Source of the DNA: Natronorubrum halalkaliphilum
Lineage (GTDB): Archaea; Halobacteriota; Halobacteria; Halobacteriales; Natrialbaceae
NCBI RefSeq assembly: GCF_009834785.1
Contig: NZ_WUYX01000053.1
Span: 72,656 to 136,655 of the forward strand
Reading direction: 5' to 3'
Length of the DNA stretch: 64,000 nt
The notes under the pieces are model-generated. The model was given only the letters and a program-made list of their open reading frames with translations. It ran no database searches and had not been told where the DNA came from. Below are positions 1-6,643 of the stretch, piece by piece. The position numbers and the translations under genes were made by a program. The number at the start of each line of letters is the position of its first letter. The first letter of the stretch is position 1.

Positions 1-692
1 CCGTCATCTTCGTTGATCTCGAGGTCGTCGATCGTCAACTGATCGACGTCCATCGTTTCGATCGTGAGGTGCTGGATCGTGAGTTCGTCAGCGTCCTCGT
101 CGATCAGATCCTGGCCGTTAGCGTCGTCGTTCTCATCGTCGACGCCGTTGTCGTCGTCAGCACCGTTTTCATCATCTGCGTCAGTGTCGTTCTCTTCTGC
201 ATCGTTTTCGTCATCTGCGTCGTCCTCGTCATCGGCATCATCGACGCCGTTGTCCTCGTCATCGACACCGGCGTCTTCCTCATCATCCGTTACGTCTTCA
301 CCATCGAGTTCGAGATCGTCGATCGAGACGTCCTCGAGTTCGAGGTGCTCGATCTCGATGTCGGAGATCGTCACCTGATCGCCGTCAGCGTCATCCTGTG
401 CGCCGTTTTCGTCGTCAGCGTCGTCGTTTTCCTCCTCGATCTCGTCGACTTCCTCGTCGAGATCGTCCTCGTCAATGTCGAGGTTCTCGACGTTTATCTC
501 CTCGATCGAGGCCTGCTCGACGGTGATGTTCTCGAGCTGGAGGGTCTCCACCTGTACGTTTTCGAGCGTTGCGTTCATGTCTCCGGCGTCGTCGTTCGCT
601 CCCGACGTTGCGCCTGCGAGGGCAGGACCCCCCGACATCGCAACCATCAGCGCGACGAAGATGACTCCGAGTGTCTGCGATCGTGAAACCAT
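1..692 (-). CDS. Secreted acidic Asp/Asn-rich repeat protein, copy 1 (C-terminus beyond the window edge)
   Basis: Starts at ATG 692 and stays open to base 1, so only about 230 N-terminal residues are visible. A Sec-type signal peptide (MVSRSQTLGVIFVALMVAMS, then GGPALAGA) is followed by short hydrophobic/polar alternating strands (TLENVQVETL, ISDIEIEHLELEDVSI) and by low-complexity blocks such as DDEDNGVDDADD. It is a paralogue of the next gene (1144-2781), sharing the signal peptide, the strand blocks and the upstream region, but its acidic repeat blocks are shorter. Function is not recognisable. The NG-containing Asp blocks recall thrombospondin type 3/calcium-binding repeats and the strand blocks suggest a beta-solenoid; both are inference. 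Likely location is the cell surface or the medium. Confidence 0.8.
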   Translation of the reverse strand, partial: MVSRSQTLGVIFVALMVAMSGGPALAGATSGANDDAGDMNATLENVQVETLQLENITVEQASIEEINVENLDIDEDDLDEEVDEIEEENDDADDENGAQDDADGDQVTISDIEIEHLELEDVSIDDLELDGEDVTDDEEDAGVDDEDNGVDDADDEDDADDENDAEENDTDADDENGADDDNGVDDENDDANGQDLIDEDADELTIQHLTIETMDVDQLTIDDLEINEDD

Positions 693-1143
693 GCATTCGT
701 TCCTACCGGCGGATCACCGCTAAAACGAGCCGACTGTTACAGTCTTCAGTCGGCGAAACACGCTGTTGGAACTCGTGCGATAATCGCTAATCCGTCGTTC
801 ATCGTACTCGGCTCGATGACTCTCATCGCGGCCGGACGAACGATGCTGATCGAAGCGAATCGGTATTGTGCCTGCGCTCGCCACCGACTTATGGCAACTG
901 CCGCAGAACGTCCCGTTACCGGCTTTTCACACTCTCCGATAACTGATACGGGACGATGCAGACTGGCCTGACCGGGCGATAGCAAGGATAGCGGCGTGTC
1001 GCACGAACCAGTACGGATTCGTCTCGAGGAGCGAGCCGTCGGCTCCAGGCTGTGACGATCGGTCGCAAAAAAAGCGCAAGCGGAAACCGGTCGGCATCGC
1101 GCCGACCGCTGCGGTAGTGCGTCGATCGGCGACGGTGTGCCGA
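693..1143. other. Gene-free stretch between the two acidic repeat genes; duplicated upstream region
   Basis: No gene seen. The part next to the 692 start (about 693-923) is recognisably homologous to the region upstream of the second paralogue (about 2782-3012): both contain CTACCGGCGGATCAC, GCTAAAACGAGCCGACTG and TGTGCCTGCGCTCGCCAC in the same order and spacing. The remainder (924-1143) shows nothing I can name. Confidence 0.7.
717..726 (-). promoter_or_regulatory. Probable TATA element of acidic repeat protein copy 1
   Basis: The minus strand reads CTCGTTTTAGC centred about 29 nt upstream of ATG 692. The same element lies at the same distance before ATG 2781. The spacing fits a leaderless haloarchaeal transcript. 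Confidence 0.5.
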
Positions 1144-2781
1144 TCAGTTCAGGACGCCGAGGATGCCGTCGTCATCTTCCTCTTCTTCGTCATCCTCGTC
1201 GTCGTCATCGTCGTCGAGGCCGTTGTCGTCATCGTCGGCCTCGTCGTCATCGTCCATTTCGGTGTCGTCAGCGTCCTCGAGGTCGGCTGCGTCACCGAGC
1301 GTCAGGGATTCGGCGGTTGCGTCACCGATGTCGATCGAAGACGCGGAGGCGTGCTCGACGGTTTCTTCGTCGTCAGCCTCGTCGTCATCGTCGACACCGA
1401 CGTCGTCATCGTCAGCATCGTCAACGCCGTTTTCGTCATCAGCGTCGTCCATGCCGTTTTCGTCGTCGTCGGCATCATCGACGCCGTTTTCGTCGTCAGC
1501 GTCGTCGTCATCTGCGAGACCGTTCTCGTCGTCAGCCTCGTCATCTTCCTCGTCCGCGAGGCCGTTCTCGTCATCGTCCATCGCATCGTCTTCCTCGACG
1601 TGCTCGACGGTCATCGAGTCGATGGTGATCTCGTCAACATCGAACTGCTCGATGGTGAGCTCGTCGATATGTTGCTCTTCGGTGTCAGCGTCGTCGTCAG
1701 CCTCGTCAGTGTCGTTGTCGTCAGCATCGTCGAGGCCGTTGTCGTCAGCCTCGTCGTCATCGTCGACACCAACGTCGTTCTCGTCGTCAGCTTCGTCGTC
1801 ATCTGCGAGACCGTTCTCATCATCGTCGGCTTCGTCGTCATCTGCGAGGCCGTTCTCGTCATCGTCGGCTTCGTCGTCAGCCTCGTCGTCCTCGACGGTC
1901 AGCTCGTCGATGGTGAGCGTCTCGACGTCCATCGTTTCGATGGTGAGCTCGTCGATGGTGAGCTCGTCAGCGTCCTCGTCGATCAGATCCTGCTCGTCGT
2001 CGGCGTCATCGACGCCGTTTTCGTCGTCGTCGGCATCGTCAACGCCGTTTTCGTCGTCGTCGGCATCGTCAACGCCGTTCTCGTCGTCGGCGTCATCCAT
2101 GCCGTTTTCGTCGTCGTCAGCATCGTCAACGCCGTTTTCGTCGTCGTCGGCGTCATCGATACCGTTCTCGTCATCGTCGGCATCGTCAACGCCGTTTTCG
2201 TCGTCGGCGTCATCCATGCCGTTCTCGTCAGCGTCCATCTCGTCGTCCTCATCGAGCTCGAGATCCTCGATCGAGACGTCCTCGAGTTCGAGGTGCTCGA
2301 TCTCGATGTCGGAGATGGTCACTTCTTCGTCGTCGGCGTCATCGACGCCGTTTTCGTCATCAGCGTCGTCAACGCCGTTTTCGTCGTCAGCGTCGTCCAT
2401 GCCGTTTTCGTCATCGTCGGCATCATCGACGCCGTTATCGTCGTCAGCGTCGTCGAGACCATTGTCGTCATCGTCGGCCTCGTCAACGCCATTGTCGTCA
2501 TCTGCGTCGTCAACGCCGTTCTCGTCAGCGTCGTCGAGCTCATCCTCGAGTTCCTCCGTGTCCGCGTCGAGGTCCTCGACGTTCAGCTCTTCAATCGTGG
2601 CGTTCTCGATAGTGACGTTATCGAGGTCCAGTGTCTCTACCTGTACGTTTTCGAGTGTTACGCCCATGTCTCCGGCGTCGTCGTTCGCTCCTGACGTTGC
2701 GCCTGCGAGGGCAGGACCCCCCGACATCGCAACCATCAGCGCGACGAAGACGACTCCGAGTTTCTGCGGTCGTGAAACCAT
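1144..2781 (-). CDS. Secreted acidic Asp/Asn-rich repeat protein, copy 2
   Basis: 545 residues from ATG 2781. A Sec signal peptide (residues 1 to about 28, ending PALAGA) precedes a mature chain that is almost only Asp, Glu, Ala, Asn, Gly and Val. Two kinds of block alternate. Many copies of a 10-11 residue unit of the type DDENGVDDADD, with V/M/I/L at the variable position, resemble Ca-binding thrombospondin type 3 repeats. Between them lie four or five strand-like blocks (LTIDELTIETMDVETLTIDE, ISDIEIEHLELEDVSIEDLE) that look like beta-solenoid rungs. There is no PGF-CTERM or LPXTG-like anchor; the C-terminus is acidic and ends DGILGVLN. I do not recognise a named family. A surface or matrix protein that binds divalent cations is an inference. 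The uniform codon pattern leaves long stop-free antisense frames, which are artefacts. Confidence 0.85.
   Translation of the reverse strand: MVSRPQKLGVVFVALMVAMSGGPALAGATSGANDDAGDMGVTLENVQVETLDLDNVTIENATIEELNVEDLDADTEELEDELDDADENGVDDADDDNGVDEADDDDNGLDDADDDNGVDDADDDENGMDDADDENGVDDADDENGVDDADDEEVTISDIEIEHLELEDVSIEDLELDEDDEMDADENGMDDADDENGVDDADDDENGIDDADDDENGVDDADDDENGMDDADDENGVDDADDDENGVDDADDDENGVDDADDEQDLIDEDADELTIDELTIETMDVETLTIDELTVEDDEADDEADDDENGLADDDEADDDENGLADDDEADDENDVGVDDDDEADDNGLDDADDNDTDEADDDADTEEQHIDELTIEQFDVDEITIDSMTVEHVEEDDAMDDDENGLADEEDDEADDENGLADDDDADDENGVDDADDDENGMDDADDENGVDDADDDDVGVDDDDEADDEETVEHASASSIDIGDATAESLTLGDAADLEDADDTEMDDDDEADDDDNGLDDDDDDEDDEEEEDDDGILGVLN
1981..2260 (-). 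repeat. Tandem coding repeats for DDENGxDDAD units
   Basis: Densest run of the 30-33 bp repeat encoding DDENG(V/M/I)DDADD inside the acidic repeat protein; further runs lie at about 1420-1520 and 2330-2530. The DNA units differ mostly at synonymous or V/M/I positions, so copy number could change by recombination or slippage. Confidence 0.8.
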
Positions 2782-3110
2782 GCACTTTCTCCTACCGGCG
2801 GATCACGGCTAAAACGAGCCGACTGTTACAGGATTATCTCGGTGAAACACACAGTTAGAAATCCTGCAACGGTCCCTAATCAGTTGTTCATCCTGTCGGA
2901 AGCGAGGAGAGTCATACAGGCCAATTCGGCGACCCCGTTGATCGAGAATTGCTCTTGTGCCTGCGCTCGCCACTCCGATACCACAATCGCCGGAGAACGG
3001 AACGTTTACCGCGCGAGTGTCGCGTCGCGGGCCCAACCCTTATCTGCGTTCGATCGGCCGCTCGGACGGAATCTTCACTGACTTACGTCCGACAGCCCAA
3101 CCCACGAGCA
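2782..3110. other. Gene-free stretch upstream of the acidic repeat gene and tgtA
   Basis: Divergent intergenic region. The left part (2782 to about 3012) is the second copy of the duplicated upstream segment described at 693-923, including the TATA-like element at about 2806-2815. The right part should hold the tgtA promoter, but I could not identify a clear TATA box. Confidence 0.6.
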
Positions 3111-4589
3111 ATGCGCGAGTGCTTCGAAGTCAGGGATACGGATGTCGGCGGCCGAATCGGCGAGCTCACCGTCCCGCGAGCCGACGTAACCGTCGAAACG
3201 CCGGCGCTGCTGCCGGTGATCAATCCGAACTTGGATACGATCAGCCCCCGCCGGCTCGCCGCGGAGTTCGGCGCCGAAATTCTCATCACGAACTCGTATA
3301 TCATCCACGGTACCGAGGACGTCCGCGAGGCGGCCCTCGAGGACGGCCTGCACGACCTCCTCGATTTCCCGGGTGCGATCATGACCGACTCGGGCTCCTT
3401 CCAGCTGTCCGAATACGGGGAAATCGACGTGACGACCGAGGAAATCCTCGAGTTCCAGCACGCGATCGGATCCGACATCGCAACGCCCGTCGACATCCCG
3501 ACCCCGCCGGACGTCTCTCGCGAGCGCGCCGCGGACGAACTCGAGACGACTCAGGAGCGCCTCGAGATCGCCGATGACGCCGAGACGGGCGAGATGCTCG
3601 TCAGCGCGCCCGTTCAGGGCTCGACCTACCCCGACCTGCGCGAGGCGGCCGGTCACCACGCGGACGGGACCGGATTGGACGTCTTCCCTGTCGGCGCGAT
3701 CGTCCCGCTGCTGAACGATTACCGGTACGACGACATGGTCGACGCCGTCGCCGCCGCCAAGCGCGGCCTGGGCGCCGACGCCCCGGTCCACCTCTTCGGG
3801 GCCGGCCATCCCATGATGTTCGCACTCGGCGTCGCGATGGGGTGTGACCTGTTCGACTCCGCCGCCTACGCGCTCTACGCCCGCGACGATCGGTACCTGA
3901 CGGTTCGGGGAACTCGCCACCTCGAGGAGTTAGACTACCTGCCCTGTTCGTGTCCCGTCTGTACTGAACACTCGCCCGACGACCTCCGCGCGCTCTCGGA
4001 CAAGCCACGGGAGAAAGAGCTCGCCGCGCACAATCTCCACGTCACGTTCGAGGAGATCCGCCGGATCAAGCAGGCCATCCGCGCGGGCAACCTCCTCGAA
4101 CTGGTCGAACAGCGCGCTCGCGCTCATCCGACGATGCTCGACGGCTACCGCACGCTGCTCGATCACGCCGCACAACTCGAGCGTTCGGATCCCGTCTCGA
4201 AAGGGGCCTTTTTCTACACCTCTCACGAGAGCGCCCGCCGGCCCGAGGTGTTGCGCCACCATCAGCGGCTCGATCGGCTCTCGGTTCCGGACTCGCTGTT
4301 TCTCACCGAGGGCGGCCCCGCGCGCGGCGACGAGTTCGACGACTCCTGGCGCGTCGAGCCGCCCTTCGGCCCCTTCCCGCGGTCGCTCTCGAAGAGCTAT
4401 CCGTTTACGGCCGAACTGCCCGCCCGGACGGACCGCGCGGCCCTCGAGGCCGCGGCCGAGGGCGTCGCGCGACTCGCCGAGGCGAATCCGGACGCCGAGA
4501 TCACGCTGGGCCACGACGGGTGGCCGACGGCGGTGCTCGAGCGGATTCCGAGCGGTGTCTCCCTGATCGATCTGACGGACGACCAGTAG
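3111..4589 (+). CDS. tgtA: tRNA-guanine(15) transglycosylase (archaeosine tRNA-ribosyltransferase)
   Basis: Exchanges guanine-15 of archaeal tRNA for preQ0, the first tRNA-level step towards archaeosine. 492 residues from ATG 3111, chosen because the family begins just before [16 protein letters not shown]; the frame is open further upstream. Visible family features are the active-site block [13 protein letters not shown] (residues about 90-102), the second catalytic region with [20 protein letters not shown] and [12 protein letters not shown], and the zinc site CSCPVC followed by a His in [10 protein letters not shown]. No C-terminal PUA domain is apparent, which is usual for the haloarchaeal form; the PUA sits in the paralogue ArcS at 13288-15051. 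The gene stands alone between the acidic repeat genes and the nos block. Confidence 0.95.
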
Positions 4590-4675: not shown

Positions 4676-4683
4676 TATATTTT
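4676..4683 (+). promoter_or_regulatory. TATA box of the nosDFY operon
   Basis: TATATTTT lies about 27 nt upstream of GTG 4706. That spacing puts the transcript start at or next to this GTG and decides for it over the in-frame TTG at 4682, which falls inside the TATA box. Confidence 0.65.
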
Positions 4684-4705
4684 GTACACGGCCCAAGGAT
4701 CAGTC

Positions 4706-6643
4706 GTGCTCGACCTCTCGACGACGAACGTATTCCTCGGAGTGCTCGCCGTCGTCGTCCTCGCGAGCGTCGGACTGTTCGTCGTCGACCCCGGCTCGAC
4801 GACGCCCGACCCCGTCGTGTTCGACGATACGGTCCCCGTCGGGCTGACGCTCGAGGCCGAACGAGGGCTCGACGACGACGTCGAACTCCCCCGAACACAG
4901 GTGTTCTACTCGCAGTATCGGTACGTCGTCGGCTACTACGGCGTCGAGACGTTCGTGGAAACCCAGCGCCAGCCCGAACACGAACAGCGGTTCGGCTATC
5001 CGATGACGGTATACGTCTCCGACTACAGCGATACGGGTGTCGAACTGACCGAGGAAGGGCATCCAACCGCGGATCGGCAACCGGGCTGGACCGACGCCGA
5101 GTCGACGTGGTTCGTCGTCGACAGCGACGCCGTGACGCCCCACGGGAAAACCGTCGTCCCCTTCTCCGACCGGGAAGACGCCGCGGCGTTTACCGACGAA
5201 CACGGCGGCACCGTCCACGACTGGGCGTCGATCCTCGAGACGCGATTCGACGGCGACGACGCGACGGTTGCGCGCGACCGCGTCGACGACCGCCACCAGC
5301 AGGCCGACGAGCGGATCGAAACGGCCGAACCGCTCGCGGATCGGCCGACGTCGATCGTCGTCGGTGACGATACGGAGACCATCCAGGAAGCGATTGAGGA
5401 AGCGCCGGCGAACACGACGATCGAGATTCCGGAAGGAACCTACGAGGAGACCATCGAGATCGACCGCCCGGTCACGCTCGCCGGCGACGGTGACGTGACG
5501 CTTCGGGGCGACGGGAACGGGACGGTCGCGACGGTAATCGCCGATCGGGTGGCGATCACGGGCCTCGAGATCGACGGCGTCGGCAACGTGACGACTGAGG
5601 GGCGGGAGTTACCCGTCGATTTCGACGACGACGCGTGGGATGCCGCGCCCACCCAGTTCTACGCCGGCACGGACGCAGGAATCGCGACGTACGCGGCGGA
5701 CGAACTGCTCGTCCAGGACGTCCGCATCGACACGCCCGCGAGCGGAATCATCACCTACGCGGGAGCGGACATCGTGATCCGTGATGTCACGGTGTCCGGA
5801 CCGGAGGATCCGTCCGATGGGCTGGCCGGCGTGCTGTCGTTCCAGTCCGCAAGCGTGATCGAAGCCTCGACGTACCAGGGCGGGAGCAACGGCATCTACC
5901 TCTATCGGTCGCCGACCACCGTCATCCGCGAAAATACGCTCGAGGGGAATCGGCTCGGGATCCACCTGATGCACACGGACGATGCTCTCCTGGCTGACAA
6001 CGTCCTCCGAGGGCAGCAAAACACCGGGATCTACATCATGACCGGGCCCCAGCGGAACGCGGTCGTCGGAAACACCGTCCGGGAGACGGCGACCGGCCTC
6101 AGTCCCGGCGGGAGCGATACGTACGTCGCGGAGAACAGCCTCGTGGAGAACGAACTCGGGTTGCGGGTCGATACGACCGCTTCGATCTACGAGAACAACG
6201 TCGTCGCCGGAAACGATGTCGGTGCGGCCGTGTCCACCATCCTGCCGACGAACCGGGTGGTCGGGAACGACTTTGTCGCCAACGGCGAACACGCCACCGC
6301 GAGCGCCGGTCCGCTTCGGATCTGGAGTCACGGCGGCGACGGAAACTACTGGCAGGGCGGTGCCGGCGTCGCCGACGGCGACCGGGCCGACCGGTCGTAC
6401 ACTCCAACGGACGCGATCGACAGTCGACTCCATCGGACCGACGGAACCCAAACGCTTGCCCGCGCGCCGGCCCTCCAGGCCTTGGCCGGACTCGAGGGGT
6501 CGGTACCGGGCATGCGAACCGGCAGTATCGTCGACCAGGCCCCGACCTGTGAACCGAACAACCCGGACCTGCTCGAGCGCACCGGGTGGGCCGACCACGC
6601 CTGGCCGTGTTACGAGACGACGCGCACGATAACCCATGACTGA
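4706..6643 (+). CDS. nosD: NosD-type copper-site maturation protein with an N-terminal NosL-like domain
   Basis: 645 residues from GTG 4706. A signal anchor (about residues 5-27, VFLGVLAVVVLASVGLFVV) places the protein outside the membrane. Residues about 35-180 resemble NosL (VSDYS, TWFVVDSDAV, PFSDREDAAAFTDEHGG) but lack the copper-binding Cys/Met motif. From about residue 215 there is a right-handed parallel beta-helix of the NosD/CASH type, with repeats such as GIITYAGADIVIRDVTV, NGIYLYRSPTTVIRENTL and TGIYIMTGPQRNAVVGNTV. NosD with the NosFY transporter is known to support copper-centre assembly in nitrous oxide reductase. It overlaps nosF by 8 nt, so they are cotranscribed. nosZ is not in the window, so the client could be another copper enzyme. 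Confidence 0.88.
   Translation: MLDLSTTNVFLGVLAVVVLASVGLFVVDPGSTTPDPVVFDDTVPVGLTLEAERGLDDDVELPRTQVFYSQYRYVVGYYGVETFVETQRQPEHEQRFGYPMTVYVSDYSDTGVELTEEGHPTADRQPGWTDAESTWFVVDSDAVTPHGKTVVPFSDREDAAAFTDEHGGTVHDWASILETRFDGDDATVARDRVDDRHQQADERIETAEPLADRPTSIVVGDDTETIQEAIEEAPANTTIEIPEGTYEETIEIDRPVTLAGDGDVTLRGDGNGTVATVIADRVAITGLEIDGVGNVTTEGRELPVDFDDDAWDAAPTQFYAGTDAGIATYAADELLVQDVRIDTPASGIITYAGADIVIRDVTVSGPEDPSDGLAGVLSFQSASVIEASTYQGGSNGIYLYRSPTTVIRENTLEGNRLGIHLMHTDDALLADNVLRGQQNTGIYIMTGPQRNAVVGNTVRETATGLSPGGSDTYVAENSLVENELGLRVDTTASIYENNVVAGNDVGAAVSTILPTNRVVGNDFVANGEHATASAGPLRIWSHGGDGNYWQGGAGVADGDRADRSYTPTDAIDSRLHRTDGTQTLARAPALQALAGLEGSVPGMRTGSIVDQAPTCEPNNPDLLERTGWADHAWPCYETTRTITHD

Follow-up and report, generated by a model that had tools for sequence, protein, structure and literature searches.

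A retained tandem pair of predicted secreted acidic repeat proteins with fixed blocks and variable linkers in Natrialbaceae

Organization of the T1/T2 locus

The window, the whole stretch of 64,000 nucleotides of Natronorubrum halalkaliphilum DNA that was analysed, begins inside the first of two minus-strand genes, T2 and T1 (Table 1). Their start codons at 692 and 2781 lie 2089 bp apart, confirming the offset given in the original prediction, which had read the genes as a tandem duplication of a secreted acidic repeat gene together with its promoter and had considered a longer array to the left. On extending the assembly leftwards, T2 was found to terminate 536 bp beyond the window edge (stop codon at L011 10121, about −535 in window coordinates), and a gene for a NUDIX hydrolase comes next; the locus holds exactly two genes in this assembly, which argues against a longer array. 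An assembly gap of 10 N directly left of position 1 (L011 10647–10656) falls inside T2, where the sequence reads EINEDD, then N, then IFNGDDD, and the pieces on both sides form one gene with the blocks in their usual order. Since a GILDQIGDFFEGLF-like segment follows block C in other T2 proteins, some 11 residues of such a segment are probably concealed by the gap.

Table 1 Features of the T1/T2 locus in window coordinates.
Feature	Position	Strand	Remark
T2 paralog (copy 1), N-terminal part (signal peptide, blocks A, B, C)	3..692	-	readable part; runs on left of the window
T1 paralog (copy 2), 545 aa, complete	1144..2781	-	
T1 signal peptide, aa 1 to about 28	2698..2781	-	by inspection
T1 block A, aa 43-73	2563..2655	-	
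T1 block B, aa 154-176	2254..2322	-	
T1 block C, aa 274-296	1894..1962	-	
T1 block D, aa 375-392	1606..1659	-	
T1 block E, about aa 474-500	1282..1362	-	
T2 upstream region	693..923	-	alignment with T1 upstream region
T1 upstream region	2782..3012	-	alignment with T2 upstream region
T2 promoter element GTAACAGTC-N6-TTTTA	721..740	-	
T1 promoter element GTAACAGTC-N6-TTTTA	2810..2829	-	
19-bp sequence common to T2 and T1 upstream DNA	866..884 and 2955..2973	-	
tgtA-type tRNA-ribosyltransferase	3111..4589	+	conserved divergent neighbour of T1, context only

Similarity of the two copies

Alignment of the two upstream regions yielded 166 identical out of 226 aligned bases (73%), with a score of 86 compared to a mean of −47 for shuffled sequences (sd 7, maximum −25), corroborating that the duplication included the promoter. 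Within the coding DNA, nucleotides 1–150 of T1 and T2 are 87–97% identical in 30-nt bins, the identity dropping to 47% by nucleotide 300, and the mature regions range from 47 to 79%. The block order is the same in both genes, and the proposed common signal peptide and strand blocks are thus borne out. Gene conversion of promoter and signal peptide across the whole family found no support at synonymous sites, where identity was 0.64 within genomes versus 0.60 across types of the same genus. In this genome only, a local conversion tract is plausible, since 24 of the 25 signal-peptide codons are identical between T1 and T2.

Block architecture and predicted fold

Based on a gapped alignment of the family proteins, each protein comprises a signal peptide followed by five blocks, A–E, in fixed order with low-complexity acidic linkers in between. 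The signal peptide-like start, the five blocks and the acidic linkers agree, at the level of sequence, with the proposed secreted acidic repeat protein. Across 116 proteins, blocks A–D display a period-5 hydrophobic pattern, in which two phases reached 0.94–1.0 and the other phases at most 0.07, with a phase slip in block E. T2 proteins alone carry an amphipathic segment, GILDQIGDFFEGLF, between blocks C and D.

The AlphaFold2 model of the window protein places strands on all five blocks with pLDDT values of 70–80 where C, D, and E are best modelled, at an overall mean pLDDT of 47 and a pTM of 0.35. The strand stacks are of moderate confidence, and Foldseek returned no fold match for them. A sequence search of the PDB yielded no solved relatives, and Pfam and NCBIfam scans of T1 and T2 detected neither a family above cut-off nor an anchor or binding domain; a Pentapeptide_4 match reached 13.9 bits compared to a gathering score of 38, and 20.2 bits in a distant homolog.

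The blocks resemble pentapeptide repeat proteins (PF00805, PF13599) in keeping strictly to a five-residue period, with hydrophobic residues at two inward-type positions (φ-x-φ-x-x), and, in the predicted model, in their β-strand character. The pentapeptide repeat consensus is of the A(D/N)LXX type with a small first residue, whereas in T1 and T2 this position is occupied by bulky V, L, I, M or F and the blocks are interrupted by long acidic linkers. T1 and T2 may work like a pentapeptide repeat protein; filing them as members of that family is not justified, because they depart from the small-residue consensus and score under the Pfam cut-off.

A private promoter element

In 114 of the 116 family genes, an element of the form GTAACAGTC-N5-GTTTTAGCC precedes the ATG by 46–47 nt, and an AACAGTC-N6-TTTTA-like element was found in all 116 (at most three mismatches). 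Exact matches to the core occur twice in this genome, at T1 and at T2, and in 64 out of 391 Halobacteria genomes, all but one of which belong to the Natrialbaceae; the sole exception precedes an unrelated frame. By eye, an AACGGT-N6-GTTTAT-like sequence is seen in distant homologs from other families. The 46–47 nt spacing would fit a leaderless transcript, the major class in Haloferax volcanii, where it accounts for 72% of protein-coding transcripts (PMC4983044). Compared with the haloarchaeal promoter consensus of TTWT with a CGAAA BRE (PMC4983044), the family promoter keeps TTTTA and differs in its upstream element. The upstream 19-mer was rejected as a general family element, being present in only 11 of the 116 family genes (at most two mismatches).

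Family distribution and age

The family occurs in 100 of the 125 Natrialbaceae genomes with one or two copies each, and no genome contains more than two real copies, as cases with three matches were split matches of one gene or weak distant matches. The comparison of relatives hence does not support the suggested copy-number-variable array, and the variation observed consists of differences between species in linker length and composition and of the loss of one or both copies.

In the tree built from the block columns of the 116 family genes, which were extracted from regions around the family matches, the T1/T2 label required 6 changes compared to 38.5 in shuffles; the T2 label came from a pattern search for the T2 segment that missed some T2 genes, including, owing to its gap, that of the window, which was mislabelled in this count and set to T2 afterwards. 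T1 and T2 genes of different genera mostly cluster with their own type, albeit not as two perfectly clean clades. The T1 proteins of the four loci L082–L085 (genus g14) are very long (687–815 aa) and sit on a long branch of this tree. The gene order tgtA-T1-T2-NUDIX-PadR is conserved, with T1 beside tgtA and T2 beside NUDIX and PadR. In Natrinema it is split into tgtA-T1 and T2-NUDIX-PadR, the halves being about 30 kb apart and inverted in several genomes, as would be expected from a rearrangement breaking between T1 and T2. The grouping by type, the fixed synteny and the absence of genomes with more than two real copies together argue that T1 and T2 are an old tandem duplication within the Natrialbaceae, retained and stable at two copies. 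T2 may be the older form, as the gene found in single-copy genomes is often T2-like and placed at the base of the tree.

The family is missing from several Natrialbaceae genomes and hence not essential. At one locus (L163; G025:C1:2367763) an intact T2-type promoter remains beside NUDIX/PadR with the protein gene missing, which we read as a promoter left behind as a fossil when the gene was lost. Between two Natrinema hispanicum strains, one gene shows a difference of 4 aa. Weaker relatives of the same block style were detected in other families of the order, their linkers being rich in NET/NES, ETTTEE or TEAPTTT, and the search for plasmid relatives yielded short matches only. A literature search found nothing on the family. 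The analysis thus defines an uncharacterised, predicted secreted pair, retained by most of a haloarchaeal family, by its architecture, its own promoter and its constant position in the genome.

Linker composition and the sequon split

The linkers evolve fast, as illustrated by T1 proteins whose blocks are identical over 157 columns but whose lengths are 439 and 526 aa. Among the named genomes, proteins contained 0–4 N-glycosylation sequons in 12 loci that we take to be soda-lake or alkaliphilic versus 15–53 in 9 presumably neutral loci, a classing by taxon with few labels, in which the habitats of Natronococcus A-GB1 and A-GB7 and of Haloterrigena H1 were guessed from the genus. Sequon density is bimodal over the 116 genes, and 11 changes on the tree account for the split. 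The two copies of a genome are usually of the same type, and the densities of T1 and T2 co-vary within genomes (Spearman 0.85, 35 pairs). Asp plus Glu make up 46–57% of the mature proteins in most soda-lake lineages versus 21–41% in neutral-brine lineages. Neutral-lineage proteins carry several times more sequons than their composition predicts, whereas most soda-lake proteins, although Asn-rich, carry no more than predicted. Within the genus of the window, one genome (L070, G004) has sequon-rich T1 linkers with 8.7 sequons per 100 aa, the other examined members having 0–1.0.

That the sequon-poor linkers result from a lost N-glycosylation machinery was rejected, as STT3/AglB was present in 19 of 19 genomes tested; an aglB homolog has also been described in the alkaliphile Natrialba magadii (PMC3403918). 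The sequon densities of S-layer proteins, taken over the first 500 aa only, overlap between the two groups (0.88 and 1.36 per 100 aa), so the bimodal split of T1 and T2 is absent there. Since AglB is found throughout and the S-layer densities overlap, the sequences point to the switch being a property of the T1/T2 linkers rather than of the glycosylation system. It is possible, and on balance rather doubtful, that the linkers switch as a unit between an N-glycosylated and a bare polyacidic form with habitat pH, in both paralogs and with blocks and promoter fixed. If true, this would be a natural experiment on the role of glycans at the hypersaline cell surface, in which the contribution of N-glycans could be tested on naturally occurring versions of a single scaffold, with glycosylation sites or bare.

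Proposed role and alternative explanations

We propose, tentatively and at slightly less than even chances, that the old and retained T1/T2 pair constitutes an exported coat or extracellular-matrix protein, built of solenoid blocks with an anionic or glycosylated brush. In this reading, one regulator would control leaderless transcripts of both T1 and T2, and the proteins would leave the cell through Sec. The blocks would fold into a pentapeptide-like β-solenoid, in which some 24–25 pentads could form about six turns of a square solenoid, and the linkers would make up a hydrated brush of high charge, which would carry N-glycans in neutral-brine species and be a bare polyacid in soda-lake species. 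The coat or matrix function itself, which we draw from this charged, hydrated brush on a block scaffold, is the weakest step of the explanation.

Haloarchaeal S-layer glycoproteins are secreted, as predicted for T1 and T2, and likewise acidic and equipped with N-glycosylation sequons. They differ from T1 and T2 in their unsplit sequon density and in two signals: an NCBIfam scan of T1 and T2 gave no match to TIGR04207, which has matches on other contigs of the same genome, and none to PGF-CTERM (whole T1; T2 minus its C-terminus). Halomucin of Haloquadratum walsbyi is a large secreted mucin-like haloarchaeal protein for which a coat role has been proposed. The likeness is by description only (secreted, coat role); halomucin is far larger than T1 and T2.

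A recent or ongoing tandem array, whose changing copy number would vary the cell surface, could account for the tandem copies including the promoter, the near-identical signal-peptide codons of this genome, the assembly gap inside T2 and the linker lengths that differ among close relatives. It appears very improbable in view of the maximum of two real copies in 125 genomes, the separate lineages of T1 and T2 with their fixed places and the strongly diverged mature-region DNA, and a local conversion tract could explain the high signal-peptide identity. The split in sequons might alternatively stem from lineage-specific expansion of short DNA repeats by slippage together with codon drift, free of selection by habitat or glycosylation. 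This would agree with linkers made of short tandem units that change rapidly in length, and with the mere 11 changes on the tree; we hold it to be somewhat unlikely, as T1 and T2 of one genome co-vary despite their earlier split, and the sequon excess of the neutral lineages has no counterpart in most soda-lake proteins despite their many Asn residues.

Instead of a passive coat, T1 and T2 could be adhesins or cell–cell contact proteins, with blocks binding a partner and linkers serving as extensible spacers. Distant homologs with an extra C-terminal segment, CARDB-like by eye, and the amphipathic segment private to T2 point in this direction, but the scans found no anchor or binding domain in T1/T2, and no adhesion domain turned up when two distant homologs were scanned against Pfam, leaving this role unlikely. 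Less probable still is a cation-binding or charge-buffering protein, whose polyacidic linkers would capture divalent cations or act as a surface buffer, with the glycans being incidental: the acidic residues of most soda-lake lineages would suit such a function, but their content falls in neutral-brine lineages while the blocks stay unchanged, and high charge is therefore not the conserved trait.

Neighbouring genes

To the left of the window, a neighbouring gene (L011:6662–8650, plus strand) encodes DUF4397 domains parted by acidic EYGEEDEYDEE-type repeats. It is a further local gene with T1/T2-like linkers and accompanies the pair in several genera. A TnpB/OrfB-like transposon-type ORF, recognized by eye (L011:839–2212, plus strand), lies some 9 kb to the left of T1 and T2. 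Inside the window, NosL and NosD domains are combined in one protein (4682–6643, plus strand), followed by an ABC-transporter-type gene pair.
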